A stretch of DNA of 64,000 nucleotides from Mesaphorura yosii (lineage: Eukaryota; Arthropoda; Collembola; Poduromorpha; Tullbergiidae), in assembly GCA_009869945.1 (NCBI GenBank), contig WIXG01000362.1, positions 1-64,000 of the forward strand, read 5' to 3'. The notes beneath the pieces are model-generated. The model saw only the letters and a program-made list of their open reading frames with translations. It did no database searches and had not been told where the DNA came from. Positions 1 to 53,502 of this stretch are shown here, one piece after another (position 1 is the stretch's first letter; the number at the start of each line of letters is the position of its first letter). Made by a program: the position numbers and the translations under genes.

Positions 1-432
1 AAAAGTCGTTTTGTTTTAACATTTATGATACAATTTGATTGCCCTCGAAGTTTGTTTCTTTCTTTACATAACAAAAAGTCTGAACAAAGGAAGCTCAATT
101 TCATTAACATTGATCTACATATCTCGCAAATGTTAAGGTTGGGGGACTCGGTGGGAAGGATTTTGGTAGAACACAACCCACACTATTCAACGATAGTATT
201 GGCTTTTCCTGGATGCGCGAAAATCTGCGGAAATATTAAACTTTGTAAAGGGCCATTACCTCCAATGGAAATTCAAGCATTCGCATGACAATAACTCAGG
301 CACCCGTTTATGAAATTTGATGAAACTTTTATCATGGACGGCCCATGACATTTAGAATTTATTATAATTAATTTCAAATCGCTCCTCGGTTGACCACTTT
401 ATTCGTTTTTACTATTACCTTATCCCATAGTG
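1..432 (-). mobile_element. Transib-like DNA transposon, copy 1 (one end only)
   Basis: The block ends at 432 with CCCATAGTG, the inverse of a terminus starting CACTATGGG. Positions 1-432 match 45,445-45,887 in inverted orientation with only a few percent difference, so this is a second copy of the same family, cut by the window start. The CACTATGG-type terminus and GC-rich flank (CAGCG follows) fit the Transib superfamily, whose termini resemble CACWATGG. An open frame at 25-288 is shared with copy 2, but I recognise no transposase motif in it. The copy lies upstream of CUB exon 554-883, so presumably in an intron. The superfamily assignment rests on the terminus only. Confidence 0.7.
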
Positions 433-553
433 CAGCGGTCGTCTTCACTTCGGCTTCGGCTCGGACTCATTATTATCATTACAAAGACGAGCTGATTACG
501 ACTACGACTACGACGTGGACATGACTTTTACTTCTTCTTACCATCCTTTTCAG

Positions 554-37800: not shown

Positions 37801-40800
37801 GACAAATCACCATGGAATATTTCCAGGTGATGCTTTCATGCTTTTGTAGAGAATTAATTGAGAGGGCGCCAAGCAACGACGACGACGAACTCGGCTCATT
37901 AATTCCTTCCACTTCACTTGGCATTGGCCAAGCACAAAATAGGAAATTCTGATTACTTGACGTTTTAGCAGCTATTTTTGCGGGCTAGTTTGGGCTGCGT
38001 TGTTTATTTGCTCGCTCGCCCAGAAAAGGATCAAAGCGATTTTGCGTATTTGCGTCGAGTTCCGTCCTGGCCGCCGGTCGGACATTGCCAGCATTAATGA
38101 GCACTCAGTCCTCTTAATTAATGACTTCTTCAACTTACATTTCTTGCATTGCAGGATTTTTCAACTTTATCGTCGAGCCTCTCTTTTTCGAGTGGCACCG
38201 AATGATGGGCACTGCGCTCGCTCAGGACATGATGGACAATCTGAGTGCAAACAAATCAAACTGGGAACGGCTCAAAGTCGAAGAAACGGCGCCACATCCG
38301 GCTGGCGAGAGCGCACAGAGGGAAATCATCGAAATCCCGCAGCATTTGCTCGTGGATGAAGACACGATAAACCTGAACGCGGACATCATCGCGGCTCGCA
38401 AGGCTTTCGACGGAGAAACGGCTCAACAGCAGGCTGGCGTCGGCGTGGCGATGGCGGCAGCGTCGGCGGAGGTCGCGGCTGCAGGAGGCGAGCTTCACCG
38501 CTCTGTCAGGTTCGACACGACAATCACAACGGCTTCCGACTCGGAGAATAGCGAGGGCGACGAGGCGAGCACGGTCTCGAACGCCCTGGACAGGGACTTC
38601 CTTGTGCCACGCCCCGACGGGCGACGTCATTCGATAGCTACAGGGTTGATGGGCTCCAACATCCAAATTCCGGCTCAGTTTCTCTCTCAGGCGATGGCGC
38701 TGCGGTCGCCCACGCACCACGCGCACGGAGGCAGTTCGCGTGACCTCGGCGTCGGCGCATCCGGGGCCGGCGATAGCGGCGGTGGTGATGTCAGCCCGTC
38801 CGTGAGGATGGTCGGCCGAACTGTGATGAGGCGCGAAAGCCTGCCGCTGCCAGGCGCGTTAGGTCCAGGCGGCAAGACGCTCTCCACAAAGACGATTCTG
38901 CACCTGCAAAAGATTAGCGGGGGAAGTGGCAGCAAGCGCAGAGGTTCAGGCGCAGGTGAGGCAGGGACAGGAAGTGACACGGATTCCGAGTCGCAGTCGC
39001 TCTCGCCAATGGGCGTCGCCGGTGAAACTGGTGAATTCGGTTCGCATCACGTTTCCAGTGCTCCAATTCCAGTTTCTCCAGGCAGACTAGCCGAGCGCAG
39101 CTCTTGTTCCAGTTCCACGACAGACGAAATCCTAGACTTTACGTACAGTCTTCCAGAGACCACCGTGGGAGGTCGATCTTCCGGAAGCCCTTCGAGAAGA
39201 CTGCTTCATGAGACGACTGACTTTGACGAGCTTTGTCCCGGCACGAGCATTCTTTCCATGAGCCCGAGTGTGACACAGCTTCAATTGCAGCATGGAATCG
39301 CGGCTGATCTGGAAGAGCAGCGCCGGCATCTGATTCGACAACAGACTTGTCCCGTCGTGAGCCTGAATGCGGACGGCAGCTTTAATCGACCACGGTTCCT
39401 GTCGGCGGCGGCGGCGATCAGTCCAACGACGGCAGCGACGTCTTCGATCATTTCGCAGCGAATGAAAAACAGAAGCCCCGAATCGGGCGGCGGTGGGGAA
39501 GGGCCGCCGCAGGGCGAGGGCCAGGGCCATATTCCAGGCAGGGTCAGTGGCGCGAGTAGTTCGGAGGCACTGCTGTGTTGTGAAGTGATTTCCGAGGAGG
39601 GTGACAGGCAGAGTTCGAGCGGGAGCAGCAGTCGAGATGGGAGTCACGAGGCAAGCCCGCTAGAAATATTTGTGCAGCAATTCCCGCCAGGGTCCGATGA
39701 CAATGACGGAGAGGCCCCGCGTAGGGAAAGTGGCGACACGAGCAGTGATCGCGATCTGCTCTCCAGCTTAACGAACATTAGCAGTTGGCCAAAATCCGCG
39801 TCCGCGGGAACGACGGCGACGGGCACGCGAAATCCGTCGAGTTACTCATCTCCAGACAGCAGCAGCGCGAGTGCGACGAGGCTCTCGCTTGACGAGAGTT
39901 CGGCAGCAGCGCCACCGTCACCGTCAAAGAAATGCAAATCTCAATCAACATCAACGTCAACTCAAGGCGGCTGCACGGAAGCAGGGCACTGCGGGCGCGA
40001 GCCCGAACCCGAAGAATGCAGCAGCAGCTCAAAAGCTCATCAGCAACAGGAAATTGATCCAAGACAACAAAAGACACCGACGACGAAGGAGACGGAGGAA
40101 TCTGACAAATCCAATAATACTCAACGAGATCATATCAAAATGGCTGCTCTAGCATCAAGTACGACGTCAACTGCGAGTAATAAGAAACCTTTAATTACTT
40201 CAAGCACCACGCCGCCCCGCCACGTCTCCACGCAAACTTACGATAATGATGCTCAAGAAGAACAAAACCCGTCTCAACAAACGTCTCCGAAGAAGAAACT
40301 GGACCCCGATTTGAATAAAGTCCCATCGTCATCGTGCTCGTCAGTGTCACCTTCCTCAAGCGCCAGCGCTCAAGCTCGTCTCGCGACGATCCTCATGTGG
40401 CGGAACAACAGGCTTTGGAGGAGCCTCACGGAAGAGGAGGCGGATGAGAATAACTTTGCAGTGCTCTCAAGCCTGGAACTTCAAAGGAGAATGTACGAAA
40501 AACAACTTTTGCCCGAATACTGCACGGAGCGATGGGATCTTCGGTTTTCTCAACAACTCCACGCACAAGTAAGTTATTCTTTTGCACAGATACGATACGC
40601 TTTTCATGCATGCATGATAATAATAGAAAATTAATTTCTTACTTACGTACTTACGATATTCTGAACTGATCTTCTTGAATCTGAGTTCTGAGATAATGAT
40701 GGAAAGAATTTCGAAAGTTATCAAAGTTTAGACTCAGCATAGAGAAGAAAGTGAACGATGAGAATGTTGAACTTTCATGTCTGAACGTGAACGCGGAGGA

Positions 40801-45263: not shown

Positions 45264-45444
45264 GGTGATGGTGCAGCAGGGCGAGATGTTGCAGGTAGAG
45301 ATTAGGAACTACTAACGACGTGACTCATTAAGCAAAGTAAATTGAAACATGCTAGGCTTAAATACAACTCGCAGGTGAAATAGGTGAAAATAATTTTGAG
45401 TTCTCTCCCGGCAAGAGCGACGAACTTGCAAAATCTCAGCGGCG

Positions 45445-46118
45445 CACTATGGGATAGGGTAATAGTAAAAAACGAATAAAGTGGTCAACCGAGGAGCGAT
45501 TTGAAATTAATTATAATAAATTCTACATATTATGGTCCGTCCATTATAAAAGTTTCATCAAATTTCATAAACGGGTGCCTGAGTTATTTTCATGCGAATG
45601 CTTGAATTTCCATTGGAGGTAATGGCCCTTTACAAAGTTTAATATTTCCGCAGATTTTCGCGCATCCAAGAAAAGCCAATACTATCATTGAATAGTGTGG
45701 GTTGTGTTCTACCAAAATCCTTCCCACCGCGTCCCCCAACCTTAACATTTGCGAGATGTGTAGATCAATGTTAATGAAATTGAGCTTCCTTTGTTCAGAC
45801 TTTTTGTTATGTAAAGAAAGAAACAAACTTCGAGGGCAATCAAATTAATAAAAAATTAAAAATAAATGTTAAAACAAAACGACTTTTACAAAATAATAAC
45901 GCACATTGAATGCATAGTGTATTTGTGTTCGACCTCTAACAAGTTCGACTTAAGTTCAAGGCTGTGCTGCGTCGCGTCAACGATCTCGTCATCTCCATCT
46001 CGAAAGAATCTCAATAGGATAGTCAAATACACTTGATTTAATGAAAATCCGTCTTTTAAAATTATTTTAAATTGATTTTGAACTTATTCGTTTTTTACTA
46101 TTACCTTATCCCATAGTG
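45445..46118. mobile_element. Transib-like short DNA transposon, copy 2 (both termini)
   Basis: This 674-base unit starts with CACTATGGGATA and ends with the inverse. The terminal inverted repeat is about 35 bases with a single mismatch. The left half (to 45,887) matches copy 1 at 1-432; the right half (45,888-46,118) matches copy 3 at 50,313-50,542. The left flank is CGGCG but the right flank is GACTG, so the short unit alone has no target duplication. The unit is too small for a transposase and is non-autonomous. A minus-strand frame (45,590-45,826) is kept open between copies 1 and 2. Confidence 0.8.
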
Positions 46119-47359
46119 GACTGGCGCAAGCTCAAGCTGGTACTTCGAGACTCACCATTTTAAGGTTCTTAGCCGTCGCCCTCTGGGAGGCGCTTTCCCA
46201 GGTTCGCCCAGGGGATCACGTCTTGTTAGGCAGAAACCGGACGGTTGCAGTTCTTGCAAGACGTTCCGGAAATGTGAAGTGCTACGCACGAGAGCCATTG
46301 GTCAAACGAACACGCATTGCATAAAGTTATGTCCTTTTTAGGCCAGGCGGAAGCCGAAATTTGGTAAAGAAAGTGTCTTGTCAAGAAAACCAGCGGACAT
46401 AAAAACATTTGCTTTCATGTTGAGAACAGATGCCAGACAGATAAGGATTAGCATATTCTTTCAAAGCTCCGACGTCCTTTGAGCAGTGATTAGCTGGTGG
46501 TTGATTTACTCCGAGTCCAGTCAACACACCCGGCTGAGTCCTTCGTGATTTGGAGGTCATTTCAAGCATTGCAATTTTACTTGGAAATCTGTATCCAGCA
46601 GCATCGGACGCTTGGACCAATACAGTCAGCCAACCTGCTTTCTGCCTGTCATTGCGGCGCTACGTCCAGACTTCCTGGGGATTCAGATGAGCTTAGCTTT
46701 TCTGAAAAAGACTTGCTCGAGCCGAGCGTGGGACACAACAGATGCAATGATTATAGTTACGAGCAGAAAAATCTCCGGTGCCGGTGCCCCCGTTATCTCA
46801 CTAAATTTGCACATTTGCTCGTATGCAAAATGGATTCAGGTTCACTTGACATGCCGTTCGATGTTGGTTTTTTCGCTTTCTTGCCGCCTGATACCGATCC
46901 GATTCAACATATGCCATGAGCCATGAACTGAGGATTGTGGACTTACTGAAACTATTTAGCTTAGTTATTTATGAGGTTGCAAAAAGCGTAGTTTTGCATT
47001 CTATGCAAATATTTTGAGTGATTCAGCATTACCAATGTGTCGAATATCACCGGATAATTGTGTCGCGAACAAGTCGTTTGCCGTTAGCCTGCCCACACTT
47101 GTGTGCATGAGCGAAGAGCTTGCTTGCGGTGGATCGGAGTCGTTTCTGTGCTTAAGACGTTAAAAACCTGTAGCATTCGGGGAGCGCGGCATCCGTCGAC
47201 TGGGAACCCTTCAAGTGCACACTTCAGAACCAAGAAGCTAAATTCATTAATTGATCAAGTAAGCTGACATTAAGAAATAACGAAAATACAACGTTTTAAA
47301 ATGGACGTACTAAATTAAACAGAATTGTCTGTCTGATACTTCTAGTACTGCGGAGCAGA
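46119..47359. other. Unassigned stretch inside the transposon-bounded block
   Basis: The segment lies between copy 2 and the SNF2 start. A minus-strand frame at 46,226-46,408 ends with LCNACSFDQWLSC and CKNC, a CxxC-CxxC pattern that resembles a zinc-binding knuckle. An overlapping plus-strand frame (46,497-46,919, 140 residues) is also Cys-rich. I recognise neither. The part nearest 47,360 presumably holds the SNF2 promoter. Confidence 0.3.
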
Positions 47360-49606
47360 ATGCCGAGAAACGCAAAGAATGGTGTAAAGAATGGGCAGAG
47401 GAGGAGCACCGGTGGTCCACAAGTCGGCCCCGACGTGAACGACTCATCGTCTTCGGGCTCAGCAAGTCTCGCTCCAACACCGCCCAAGTTGAGCAGGAAG
47501 GCGGAGCGGGTGGCACTGCAGATCCAGGCGCGCTTGAACCCCGGCTCTGCTCCACTCGGTCCCCTCTACCCGCCAACCCCGAACTCCCTCATTCTCTACG
47601 AGGCGAAGCAGGATAGCTTCCATGCGACCGACAACCCGAACGGCCTGCTTCCCGTCGTCGTGCACCCGCACTTCACCGTCCCCCGCCCGGAAATCAACTT
47701 CAGAGGACTCACCGACGACCAGAAAGACGGCATCAGATTCATGTGGAACTCCCTCGTCAGGGAAGGCCAAGGCTGCATCCTCGGCCACGGAATGGGGCTT
47801 GGCAAGACGCTGAGTGCGCTGAGTCTCATGATGACGCTCCTAGACCAGAAGGAGAACTGCAGGGGTAGAATGAAGCGGGCAGTCGCCAAGATCCTGGTGC
47901 TCACTCCGAAGAGCATTCTCTGCGTGTGGGAGAAGCAGATCAGCGACTGGAGTCCAGGGGACAGGAAGCTGGAGTACGTCGTGATAGAGTCGGGCATGCG
48001 GAGGACAGTGGCGGAAGAGCACATCCGCAGCTTCGAGACTGACAGGAAGGAGGTTCTCCTCTTGTCTTACGACTCCTTCAAGAAGTACCGGAATTTCTTT
48101 CGCGACTACGAGGAACCGCTGGAGCTTGCCATTTGCGATGAAGCCCATTATCTCAAGAACGCCAAGGCGCAGCGGACACTCGCCCTAGGCTCCTACGAGC
48201 TGGACGACGGGAGCGGACGTCAGCGCACGATTAAGACGCTGATCGGTCTCACCGGCACTCCGTACCAGAACAACGAGGACGAGCTTTGCAGCCTCGTTAA
48301 CTTCTTTCGGCCCAACTGCCTGCCTGCAAACACGCCGGATCTGCTGAAAGAGCTGCGCAGTGCCGACAATGCCATGAACACTAAGAAGACGGATGCAGAG
48401 AAGCGAGCCGCGAAGATGCGTGCCCACGACCTTCGTCAGCACCTGCACCCATACTTCAAGCCGGTGATCCACTACCGCTCCACCCAGGTGCGTGGCGTGG
48501 ACAAGCACGAGCTGATCGTCTGCGTCAGGCTGGAGAAGGACACGCAGTACAAAATGTACACGGCGCTGACTGATTCGGTCCAGTTCAAAGAACTCAGCTT
48601 CTACGCGAAGCTTGACATTCTGAGAAAACTCTGCATTCATCCCGAATACGCCTACAAGCAGATACAGAAAACGCCCAGCCTGGCGGCGCTGGAGCAGATG
48701 TTTGCGAAGGAGATCGTGGGCATGCAGGGCATCAATTTCCCGGACGCCGGCAAGCTGCACTTCGTGGCGCAGTTGCTGACCGAAATTTTCGTGAAGAACG
48801 AGGCCAAGGACGAGAAGGTGGTCGTGGTGTCTTACTCCGTGGAGCATTTGGGCCGCATGAAAGGCGCCTGCGACCATTTTGTGGTGGGCCGTGGCCTGCT
48901 CGACTTCAAGTGCATCATGTTAACGGGCACGGACTCCGAGGCGGCCAGGAGGACCACTCTCGCCAAGTTCAACTCCAACGGGGAGGGCATCCGCATTCTG
49001 CTTCTCAGCTCCGAAGCCGGGGGCCAGGGCCTCGACCTCACCGCTGCCAACCACCTGATCCTGATGGACCCTGGCTGGAACCCCGCCATTGACTCCCAGA
49101 TCGTGGCCCGCGTTTACCGGAAGGGGCAGAAGAAACGGAGCTGCTTCGTGTACCGCCTCCTGGCGACGAACACCATCGACGAAGTCATGTTTCTGAACCA
49201 GCTGACCAAGACGGAGATCGACAAGTACTACAAGAGCGAGGAGCCGGAAGTGGAGCCTCAGTCGGGCTACGACACCAAGGACCTCACCAAGTACCACCAC
49301 GCGGACGGCTCACTAACGAAGGACATGCTGGAGAAGATCAACGCGGGTGGAGGGCTGAATGCCGGCGCTGACGCGAAGGAGGACGACTTCTTCGAACGGC
49401 GCTGCTTTGCTGAGGAGCTCGCCAAGTCGAAGCAGTACGCCAACGCGGCTGCCGTTCCTCCTGTGCTGGGCAGTCTGAAAGCGGCCTGGGATCACGGGGT
49501 CACCTTCGCATTCCACAAGTTTGAGGGCGACGACGGGAGCAACGTCTACCGCACCCTCGAGGAAATTCTCGAGGTCAGCGACACCGAGGACGAAAGTGAC
49601 GACTGA
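47360..49606 (+). CDS. SNF2-family ATPase, Rad54/ATRX-like group, intronless
   Basis: One uninterrupted frame encodes 748 residues. Helicase motifs of the SNF2 family appear in order: motif I GHGMGLGKT (142-150), Ia LVLTPKSI (179-186), II DEAH (260-263), III LTGTP (297-301), V SSEAGGQGLDL (550-560) and VI QIVARVYRKGQ (580-590). All are consistent with an ATP-driven DNA translocase in the nucleus. The His before MGLGKT, instead of Asp, is seen in ATRX and ARIP4-type members. No chromatin-reading domain is visible; the last 120 residues end in an acidic tail, DTEDESDD. Every neighbouring cellular gene has introns, this one has none, and its third codon positions look much richer in G and C. An AATAAA lies at 49,787-49,792. 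It may be a retrocopy or transferred gene. The start was chosen as the first ATG of the frame. Confidence 0.88.
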   Translation: MPRNAKNGVKNGQRRSTGGPQVGPDVNDSSSSGSASLAPTPPKLSRKAERVALQIQARLNPGSAPLGPLYPPTPNSLILYEAKQDSFHATDNPNGLLPVVVHPHFTVPRPEINFRGLTDDQKDGIRFMWNSLVREGQGCILGHGMGLGKTLSALSLMMTLLDQKENCRGRMKRAVAKILVLTPKSILCVWEKQISDWSPGDRKLEYVVIESGMRRTVAEEHIRSFETDRKEVLLLSYDSFKKYRNFFRDYEEPLELAICDEAHYLKNAKAQRTLALGSYELDDGSGRQRTIKTLIGLTGTPYQNNEDELCSLVNFFRPNCLPANTPDLLKELRSADNAMNTKKTDAEKRAAKMRAHDLRQHLHPYFKPVIHYRSTQVRGVDKHELIVCVRLEKDTQYKMYTALTDSVQFKELSFYAKLDILRKLCIHPEYAYKQIQKTPSLAALEQMFAKEIVGMQGINFPDAGKLHFVAQLLTEIFVKNEAKDEKVVVVSYSVEHLGRMKGACDHFVVGRGLLDFKCIMLTGTDSEAARRTTLAKFNSNGEGIRILLLSSEAGGQGLDLTAANHLILMDPGWNPAIDSQIVARVYRKGQKKRSCFVYRLLATNTIDEVMFLNQLTKTEIDKYYKSEEPEVEPQSGYDTKDLTKYHHADGSLTKDMLEKINAGGGLNAGADAKEDDFFERRCFAEELAKSKQYANAAAVPPVLGSLKAAWDHGVTFAFHKFEGDDGSNVYRTLEEILEVSDTEDESDD

Positions 49607-50312
49607 AAATTAGGCAAATCATTCAATGACAATAATTTAGCGTAGCAGAACAGATATACTTTTAATCATTTAATCATAATTGACCACCTGCTTGTAGTTG
49701 CCATTATTATTATTAATCCTTGCTTTCGACTGTCGACTCGTGTTCAAACGAATTGTAAATATCCTTGACTGTCGGCTGAATTGTTGAATAAACTGAAACT
49801 TTTGCAGGAATTCCAAACTGAGTACCTTCACTCGACCCATCGCAGGCATCGTCTAATTTGGCAGAGTGCCTAACTTGTGCGCACCACCGCATCGAAGCAT
49901 TACGAAGGTTTCCGGAACTCCAACCCCACCGAGAGCCATATGAATGGGCTTTTTAAGCATGGAGAAACTTGTGAGTCACGCCATCACCCGCACCAGTGCG
50001 ATTTCAATGGAAGTAATTACTCGCCTCGGCACTCTGTCGACGGAGTCGCCTTCTCTTCGGGGTTCAATGTCCGTGAACGGTGAATGAATGAATGTGGGGC
50101 GCCACGAGTCCCAGCTCCAGTCAAGTCCCAAAGCTCCGGTAGCACAGCCAAAGAGGTCAACATGAGTCCCGCAGCCACTAACCCGGTCTCATTGTTCTGT
50201 TATGGCCGCATTCATCAGGGTCGTTGTGGCTAAGGCCACGGGGGACGCGGGCCTCGCCCTGCCCTTCGGCTCTCTGCATGCGTGCACATTCCACCCCGTT
50301 CACAATGCGGAT
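49607..50312. other. SNF2 3' region and GC-rich block
   Basis: The first 190 bases are AT-rich and hold the poly(A) signal of the SNF2 gene. From about 49,860 to 50,310 base composition turns GC-rich, with a 68-residue frame (49,877-50,083) that I do not recognise. The block stops sharply where copy 3 begins. No known repeat family was recognised. Confidence 0.35.
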
Positions 50313-50542
50313 ACAAAATAATAACGCACATTGAATGCATAGTGTATTTGTGTTTGAACTCTAACAAGTTCGACTTAAGTTCGAGGCTGTGCTGCGTCGC
50401 GTCAGCGATCTCGCATCTCTATCTCAAAAGAATCTCAATAGGATAGTCAAATACACTTGATTTAATGAAAATCCGTCTTTTAAAATTATTTTAAATTGAT
50501 TTTGAACTTATTCGTTTTTTTCTATTACCTTATCCCATAGTG
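50313..50542. mobile_element. Transib-like DNA transposon, copy 3 (right half)
   Basis: The 230 bases match 45,888-46,118 in the same orientation with roughly seven substitutions and one gap, about 3 percent. It ends at the terminus CCCATAGTG and is followed by CGGCGGCG. The left half of the family is absent, replaced by unrelated GC-rich sequence. It ends 132 bases beyond the UTP25 stop codon. Confidence 0.75.
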
Positions 50543-50673
50543 CGGCGGCGTCAAAAACAAAGGCAAAAGCAAAAAGTGCAATAAATCGGGAAATGCGCAT
50601 TCGATTCAGTAACAAATCGGTATTTAATTAAAATCTGACAGTTGAACAATTAACAAATTAATAGTGTACATTT

Positions 50674-53502
50674 TCAAGAAGCACTGACAATCGCGTGTAT
50701 TTTCTTATTCGATGTCAGCATGTGATTCGCCCTTTCTCTTCCAACAATTCCCGACAGTCGTGGGGCGTCGTATTTGCAGTAAATCACGTTCACGCTGCTG
50801 TTGTTTCGTTGGCGGACCCTCCGGTTCTGGTTTTCACTCTGAAATAGGTTAGGTCATCTCATACCGGGAAGGCTTGTGTGGTAGGGTGATGCTAAAATAA
50901 GGAACTTACGTGCACCAGATTGCAGAGCTCCGAGTAGAAATGTGGATACTGGGGCAATTGATAGAAAATTATGTGACCAATTCCTTTTAGACGAAATCTC
51001 CGAAAGAAGTGAGCTCGCTCCGTGTATACCAGAAAGTGGTTCTTGCCGTGGAAAAACAAGTCTCGGGCACGAGCGATCTTCTTATCCTTCGTGTATTCGC
51101 AGATTTGGACGAAACTCTTCTCCTCCCGCTTGAAATAATTTCTTAGTCGTACAAAATCGAAGTAAGACGATACAAAAATTAAGGTGTGGCTGAACAGACT
51201 GCCAGTGAAGTCCGGAAGAACCTTCTCGACGAAGTAATTAAATCGAGCGTCAATCGATTCTGCGACGGAGTCGGCCGGAAATTGATGGAAAACCTAGATG
51301 ACGTCAGCAAAGTGAAGTTTCACCAGAAATTCTCAAATTCGCATATTTTTGGGTCCTTACCTGCGGCAAATGAGAAGTGATCTGCATGATCGTCCCTTTC
51401 GAGGAGGGTGGAATAATTTTCGCCAGTCCAGCATAATTTTTGCAATATCTCGCCAGCAGAGCGTTGTGCTCCGGACACATAATTGAGCTTAGCATGATGG
51501 TCTGGCAGTAAAACTTTGACTGTCCCTCAACTGCCCACGGGCGAATTCTTCCAAAGTCTGTGCCGTGCGTCGTGATAGGCTGAAGGTGCATATGCTTCAT
51601 CAAATGGAGGACGTGGTCCCAACTCTACATTAAATGGTCAATTAAGAATTAAACGAGATGACAGCAAAATCCAAAACAGTCATCGCCATCGTGGCGTGGT
51701 AAAGCTTGCCTGCATCAAGAAAACATCTGCTTGATCAATGATGAGCACTTCGATTGATGATAAGAAATCGTAGTCCCGACTCCTGTCAAATCAGTGGTTA
51801 TTAGTAATTATTCAATTAGTAATTCAATTGTTTGCTTGTCACTGGTGCCTACTTTTCTCCTTCAGCTCCAATAATAAGTCTCAAGCCAAGCGGTGACGCG
51901 ATTATAATGTCAGAAGAGTAAAATCCAGTGTAGAGCTACAGAAATAAACCGAACAATGAAAGGAGTGCGAGTGACGGCAAGAAGTCACGCAGAGGTTACG
52001 TACTATCAGAACAGATTACCTTGATGCTCTTCTTCGTAATTGCCAGACCGATTTTAAAGTTATCTTCCACATTTCCGGCAAATGTGGCCATGTAATCTTC
52101 CGGCTTTGGATTAGTCTTGGGCATGAAAAGTGTTTCTCCGCCGAATTCAGTCACAAACCGTCTCTTGTTTTGGACATTTCCCTTTTCTTCTGATAAGAAC
52201 GTGGATATGAGCACCTTCACAATCCTGTGTCACATTATTGCATTAATTAAATTATAATTTAATTAAAAAGCACGCGATGATACGGAGGTACGGTGAATTC
52301 AGCATTCAGCCAGCGAACCTCAAAGCGCTCTCCTTGAAAGGCACCAAAATAAGGACTTTGGGCCTCACAAAGCCTTGATCCCGAAACTCCTCCGGGACTT
52401 CAGTCTTGTTCTGCATTCTGGCGTTGTGGTGAAGTATTCTACCTCGTACTTTGGTTATGTGATTGGCCACGTGATAACAGTACGCCTGAAATTGCCAAGT
52501 AGGAGAATAAGAAATTAATTCTACTGACTGTAAAAGGTCAGCTTACATTTCGGAGCTCGTTCTCATTCGAATATGTTCGTTGTGGAAAGTAAATATCGTG
52601 ATAATTCCCCATTAATGCAAGAAGCTCCGATTGCAAGGGTGTCAACGGGCCTGGTGTTTCCATCTTTTCTGTGAAATCCTGGACGACAATACAAAATTGA
52701 AAACCTGCCTTGAGTTCAACCGAATACTGAATCTTAAGTGAATGATATTTACCTTGTTAGCAGTTAAAATATTATCACGTATTTTGGATTTTATGAACAG
52801 AGATTGCAAAATTTCTTCGGAGTTGGAAGTAGTGCTCGAATTAAAAGTTGAAGAGGTAGCCGTCGGTAGCCGAGGCATCATAGGCGTCAATAGAAACTTC
52901 GGCTTGTGTTTCTCGAGTATCGTCAAAGACATTTCAGGATTGTCAGTGGCGGCGATGGTGAAATTTTCTTCCAAAGCGATGGTGAGGATGAAATTCTCGA
53001 GTGAGGACCAGTTAAATTGGTGTTTTATTCGAGGGCAGCTTGGATCTTCGAACCGCTTCTGCTGCTGAACTGCCATATCTCTCTCAAAATGAAGCCGATA
53101 CGGATCTGCCGACGCATCGGATGCCTCTTCCTGCTGTTCATCCTAAAAGTAGACACAATAATTGAATACAATGAACAGGAAGGGCATCTTTGGTTCGATA
53201 TTTATTTCGATAGCTACCGAATCCGAGAAATCCGAATCCAGTTCTGCCTCGTTGATGACATTTTCTTCAGGGACGTCGACTTCTTCATCTTCTACGTCCA
53301 GCACATTCTCGGCGATGGCGGCTTGACCGGGTATTGTCACTGTGTTGTCTGCCGTCGCATCCTGATCACCATCGAATTCGTTGAGTGCTTTCTTCCTTAA
53401 TGGCATTTCCACATTCTCATGTGCTATACTGTCCTCATCTACATTTTCCTCGTCGTCAGTTAGCTCAACTTCCTCACCTTCGGATAACTTCCTCTTGGAC
53501 AT
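50674..53502 (-). CDS. UTP25: U3 small nucleolar RNA-associated protein 25 (digestive organ expansion factor homologue)
   Basis: Ten coding exons on the minus strand: 53,218-53,502, 52,753-53,142, 52,547-52,678, 52,319-52,485, 52,020-52,224, 51,853-51,935, 51,710-51,782, 51,361-51,624, 50,910-51,293, 50,674-50,838. They give 715 residues (human about 756). An acidic N-terminus with KKRK-like basic bits is followed by [27 protein letters not shown]-type text, [17 protein letters not shown] and FGRIRPW, all typical of UTP25. The protein is a nucleolar SSU-processome factor needed for 18S rRNA maturation. It has a helicase-like fold that has lost ATPase motifs; the DEAD position reads IDQAD here. 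The intron after 51,710 starts with GC instead of GT. A 5' untranslated exon ending at 53,603 (donor GTAAGT) is likely. Confidence 0.93.

Follow-up and report, generated by a model that had tools for sequence, protein, structure and literature searches.

Transib elements are recognised by CAC(A/T)ATG at their terminal inverted repeats, a hallmark of the superfamily, and RAD54 is a translocase on double-stranded DNA that acts in recombination. Transib and RAG-like elements are described as making 5-bp duplications, and Transib ends as resembling the RSS heptamer, in the available portions of two reports (PMC8355894, PMC7204232); the available portion of a third gives CGNCG as the Transib target site (PMC4735498). 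For P elements, an excerpt proposes that two close, possibly partial copies can move en bloc, by 'macrotransposition' (PMC1562414), and an excerpt on Ac/Ds describes the ends of two nearby elements being used together (PMC8225341).

The locus described here, in which a RAD54-type gene lies between the outer ends of two small transposon copies, would resemble the P and Ac/Ds cases in that the outer ends of neighbouring copies carry the DNA between them. It differs from them in being one locus with one 5-bp match, and in having ends of Transib type, not hAT or P. Its small copies resemble the Transib superfamily and its non-autonomous derivatives in their end sequence, their 5-bp duplications and their C...G sites near CGNCG, whereas they are known here from these ends and duplications, and we found no coding capacity in them. 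The gene, in turn, resembles the RAD54 family in its SNF2 core with helicase motifs, its nearest solved structure being RAD54 over both the core and the C-terminal tail; it is, however, a divergent paralogue, and a gene on another contig of the same genome (C360) fits the RAD54-like structure 1z3i better.

Results

Anatomy of the block

The window, meaning the whole stretch of DNA analysed, is the first 64 kb of the 74-kb contig C362, and our genome searches covered the 93-Mb assembly to which it belongs. Its relevant features are as follows.

1..433, minus strand: third element copy, truncated at the contig start; its other end presumably lies at the end of contig C843
44774..45263, minus strand: CHCH-domain gene (CHCHD7 in the initial annotation), exons read by eye
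45440..45444, no strand: left outer flank CGGCG, putative target site duplication
45445..46118, plus strand: left copy ('A+B'), a complete 674-bp non-autonomous Transib-type element, from its inverted ends and repeat comparison
45445..45479, plus strand: A end, 35-nt terminal inverted repeat, from an inverted-repeat scan
46084..46118, minus strand: inner B end, 35-nt terminal inverted repeat, followed by GACTG, which is unlike the left flank
46119..50311, plus strand: segment X (the gene and its flanks), of which 46119-47400 and 49560-50330 match only themselves
47360..49606, plus strand: intact SNF2 translocase gene of RAD54 type, 748 aa, from its open frame, Pfam and PDB
50312..50542, plus strand: second copy, last 231 bp ('B' part) only, of the same element as the left copy
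50508..50542, minus strand: outer B end, 35-nt terminal inverted repeat, from an inverted-repeat scan
50543..50547, no strand: right outer flank CGGCG, putative target site duplication
50895..51624, minus strand: UTP25 gene, two exons checked (Utp25_C 1.4e-50, UTP25_NTPase-like 7.8e-23)

The block thus has the order A-B-X-B and totals ~5.1 kb, of which X, the gene segment, makes up 4193 bp. The initial annotation had reported inverted termini at 45,445 and 50,542 with CGGCG outside each, and both are present as described: the 40-nt arms at 45440-45479 and 50508-50547 are 93% complementary in an inverted-repeat scan, so that the A end and the distal B end stand in the normal inverted arrangement. 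The same kind of scan pairs 45445-45479 with 46084-46118 at 97% complementarity, the two ends of the left copy, and the 231 bp on the right are 96.6% identical to that copy in direct orientation. The inner end at 46,118 had been said to lack a matching flank, and it is indeed followed by GACTG; TGGCG, one base off CGGCG, sits three bases past this inner end. The right flank sequence is CGGCGGCG, and the target context is GC-rich.

With the block at 45445-50542 removed, the reading frames of CHCHD7 and UTP25 would be separated by a few hundred bases. In the former, Pfam finds COX6B at E 1.3e-5 (25.7 bits, just below the 26-bit cut-off) and CHCH at E 0.0016 (18.9 bits against a cut-off of 27.2 bits); the latter may have a further last exon, read by eye, with its end near 50710. 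An Rfam scan of the window gave 0 matches at gathering score. COX1, used to place the species, likewise had no match, its control matching in 8 of 14 genomes, and runs of TTAGG hint at an arthropod. Elsewhere in the window, an open frame at 38121-40634 encodes a Ser-rich protein of 837 aa, is GC-rich and has no Pfam match at E 0.01.

The element family and its duplications

The small copies have CACTATGGGATA ends, which start CACTATGG, form inverted repeats of 35 nt and fit a CAC(A/T)ATG start; no gene was found in the small copies of the element. Used as a genome query, the left copy returns at least 30 matching pieces, among them a full copy on contig C643 and partial copies at contig ends. 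The C643 copy has CACAG on both sides, within one contig. The end of C843 and the start of C362 would together give a second paired copy, with the duplication CAGCG/CAGCG, their pairing being suggested by matching parts and flanks; because both carry element ends, with CAGCG outside each, the two contigs are probably neighbours separated by a gap within the element. In the same manner, the end of C232 appears to pair with the start of C301, with the duplication CGATG/CGATG, the terminal C being lost or shared in C232. An exact 5-bp duplication of the form C...G is therefore found in all three paired close copies, two of them across presumed contig joins, and single flanks are available on C93 (CTCCG) and C522 (CAACG).

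Two side observations concern the make-up of these copies. The copy split between C232 and C301 is interrupted by a nested insertion with inverted edges of 28 nt (CAGTGTGTTAAAC..., at TA), which we take to resemble a Tc1/mariner insertion. Four other contigs carry, at 89-92%, an inner piece of the element of 82-85 bp (45925-46009 in the window); it is followed by GTGGG in all four, and is apparently part of a different repeat.

Duplications are less tidy in a related, GACA-type family. Just one of its five paired copies has flanks that are both exact and adjacent (C381, GCATCT, 6 bases); on C103 four of five bases agree, the flanks on C161 and C4 agree only if shifted by one base, and on C331 the right end is lost, CACTT standing on the left and recurring three bases beyond the break.

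What would mobilise such elements? A search with PF12940 (RAG1 family) for a Transib transposase gave 0 matches, as did its control, which likewise matched nowhere. Related Transib-type elements have in common a coding tail of ~60-70 aa, present in 8 places in the genome; a 70-aa version has no match better than expected by chance in either PDB (best E 2) or Pfam (best E 0.17). One of the 8 places, a weak match on C1084 (44%, E 4.4e-4), lies near a stretch resembling the window element, possibly a relic of an autonomous relative.

One insertion or two

The left copy has CGGCG on one side and GACTG on the other, but the block as a whole has CGGCG on both, and its close relatives are tidy, which together favour a single insertion of the entire block. 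A macrotransposon is expected to have flanks that match at its two outer ends and not at the inner end, and this is the pattern that we observe; the two outer flanks presumably represent one target site duplication. The duplication had been judged to suit the large block more than the small unit, a judgement supported by the exact 5-bp duplications of the three paired close copies.

How easily could the two flanks agree by chance? CGGCG accounts for 74 of the 3395 C...G 5-mers of the window, in which two random C...G 5-mers agree with a probability of 0.019, and the probability of CGGCG calculated from five independent flanks of the element family is ~0.018. On the other hand, chance agreement would be ~0.25 were Transib always to choose CGNCG, the site to which the outer flank conforms as given in the available portion of PMC4735498. 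The initial annotation had left room for coincidence, on account of the right flank and the target preference; our estimates of chance agreement run from 0.02 to 0.25.

Such a coincidence is at the heart of the alternative that we weigh most heavily, although we still consider it unlikely. Here the gene would already have stood in the CHCHD7-UTP25 spacer when a complete element landed to its left and a later-truncated one to its right, the left duplication would have decayed, and the match of the two CGGCG flanks would be accidental, helped by a CGNCG-like preference. The gene does resemble an ordinary host gene, and a CGNCG site (PMC4735498, in the portion available) lifts the chance agreement to its upper value. 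A duplication lost at the left copy alone is possible, since the related GACA-type duplications are often imperfect, with the single exact and adjacent case among five speaking for decay of this kind. Yet the three closer paired copies have all kept theirs exact, agreement by chance as estimated from real flanks is only ~0.02, and two copies would have come to lie ~4.4 kb apart in the same orientation although few were assembled in 93 Mb (counts that are lower bounds).

To judge by the sequence, then, the block would have arrived in one event, by macrotransposition at about an even chance or by recombination at a considerably smaller one, an estimate that draws on a single 5-bp match calibrated on three close relatives.

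Routes to A-B-X-B

Macrotransposition and recombination fit a single event equally. In the recombination account a solo element with its CGGCG duplication came first, and its 231-bp B part then served for homologous recombination that brought in X, for instance from a circle of X and B, to give A-B-X-B. An A-B-X-B order with a direct repeat of 231 bp around X is the product of a single crossover, and exact outer with mismatched inner flanks are explained equally well. The B parts of the left copy, the right copy and C843 have variants in common that set them apart from C643 and C301, as this account would have it. Against it stands the missing donor of X: the stretches of the segment beside the gene (46119-47400 and 49560-50330) have no second copy in the assembly, so there is no donor site in it. 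We rank macrotransposition above recombination, which we regard as distinctly improbable, because the former needs no extra intermediate.

The comparison of the two B parts bears also on the assembly itself. They differ at 8 sites, and the private differences are unequal, at 6 on the right (one also in C693) and 2 on the left (p = 0.29). Over 93 bp the left B part is identical to that of C843, and five contig ends fall in element copies or in the nested insertion (the start of C362, the ends of C843, C93 and C232, and the start of C301). Both observations could be accommodated by a misjoin at the repeated element, the true spacer then holding a solo element with the CGGCG duplication, and X coming from elsewhere, between other copies. 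However, the 8 differing sites mean that the two B parts are not one collapsed copy, and X is not placed anywhere else in the assembly, so that we give a misjoin very little credence. A second copy of either outer flank, as an empty site would provide, was sought in this assembly, and each flank found only itself.

A divergent RAD54 paralogue

An intact SNF2 frame had been reported inside the block, and it holds up well: 748 codons are open at 47360-49606, and Pfam finds both domains (SNF2-rel_dom 3.3e-33, Helicase_C 3.8e-17). The protein contains the helicase motifs GMGLGKT (144), DEAH (260), LTGTP (297), SSEAGGQGLDL (550) and QIVARVYRKGQ (580). We placed it by comparison with PDB sequences and with paralogues in its own genome. 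Its closest PDB match is the RAD54-like 1z3i, which we take to be the zebrafish protein (E 4.4e-52, 180 bits, residues 76-725 of 748, C-terminal tail included), followed by ERCC-6 (1.9e-36) and ATRX (1.2e-31). The description 'chromatin-remodelling ATPase' was therefore right as to an SNF2 ATPase but loose as a label, the best solved relative being RAD54, a protein of recombination repair. The more canonical RAD54 on C360, whose 5' exons were read by eye, reaches 253 bits to 1z3i and is 32% identical to the window gene over 594 columns.

The sole close relative of the window gene is a decayed 3' fragment on C947, with 50% identity in protein and 70% in DNA. Substitutions between the two fall on codon positions 1, 2 and 3 at 39/222, 34/225 and 78/223 (chi-square p = 3e-7), and this bias towards third positions indicates that the protein was under selection for much of that time, as a host gene. 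The window gene is probably still in use and, to go by its motifs, may work in recombination like RAD54. As for element ends, scans of C947 (whole, 14.7 kb) and of C360 (4.7 kb) passed none of this family; C947 has four 7-mers like a Transib start (three CACAATG, one CAGTATG), all on the plus strand, which therefore do not form a pair. The relic thus shows that the gene family exists apart from the element. At the start of C947 (1-345), inspection by eye also suggests the C terminus of a Tc1/mariner-type transposase in an open frame of 115 aa, for which Pfam returned nothing at E 1.

The gene had further been singled out as GC-rich and intronless. Its GC3 of 0.79 is indeed the highest of 41 long frames, not all of which need be genes, but the next values are 0.78, 0.75, 0.74 and 0.71; with other frames nearly as high, GC richness and the lack of introns are a weak special feature, not unusual enough to carry weight. 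The frame with a GC3 of 0.71 is a long SNF2 frame on C346, ATRX-like by eye. Horizontal transfer was considered as a source of the high GC and rejected, other long frames being close behind in GC3. A pattern search for the SNF2 frame found no matching stretch in viral contigs, and 85 phage records had a match to it, with an identity of at most 25.6% among the ten matches listed.

Could the gene nevertheless belong to the transposon? The initial annotation had proposed that a DNA transposon family took up the ATPase, and in this account the family would bear the SNF2 gene as its own cargo and spread with it. The element ends and the intact ATPase frame do lie in one block. However, no other unit with both termini and an SNF2 frame was found in this assembly (search counts being lower bounds), and among the matches listed only C362 and C19 have both element and SNF2 matches, those on C19 lying more than 300 kb apart. 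The interior of the block is single-copy, and the single-copy stretches beside the gene give no sign of an SNF2-cargo transposon family in the genome as assembled; the relative on C947, for its part, has none of this family's ends on its contig. The proposal is thus not supported, and we find it scarcely credible.

Discussion

The reading that we prefer, and to which we give about an even chance, is a single macrotransposition of a host RAD54 paralogue between the ends of two small elements, the gene being cargo and not a transposon gene. A host RAD54-type gene would at first have been flanked by a complete and a 5'-truncated copy of a small Transib-type element. A Transib transposase, whose involvement we infer, would then have treated the left copy's A end and the right copy's B end as the two ends of a single element, and the whole 5.1-kb block would have been put into the short CHCHD7-UTP25 spacer, with duplication of CGGCG. 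Several points count against this reading: there is one 5-bp match only, its context is GC-rich, TGGCG is a near-match beside the inner end, the B parts differ unequally, and neither a donor site nor an empty allele was found in the assembly. Among the papers listed on Transib with gene capture or SNF2, on Rad54 retrogenes and on arthropod RAD54, none has a title or abstract opening that concerns such a block.

RAD54 takes part in the strand-invasion repair of gaps that a DNA transposon leaves on excision. It is tempting to imagine that a Transib-type element became a vehicle for moving an intact RAD54-type translocase, a cargo that could aid the element in regaining a copy after excision and that would be kept for that; we hold this to be a very faint prospect.

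The RAD54 paralogue, of which there is an intact copy and a decayed one, is in itself a modest observation on a gene family. The locus also counsels caution, as a gene between transposon ends is not necessarily a transposon gene, and it is the comparison of flanks with those of other copies of the same element that separates the evidence of the flanks from the claim about the cargo. If the block did move in one piece, this would be a case in which Transib ends took an intact host gene, in its entirety, to another site, and a move en bloc of this kind would, if true, offer a plain route by which genes change their neighbourhood.
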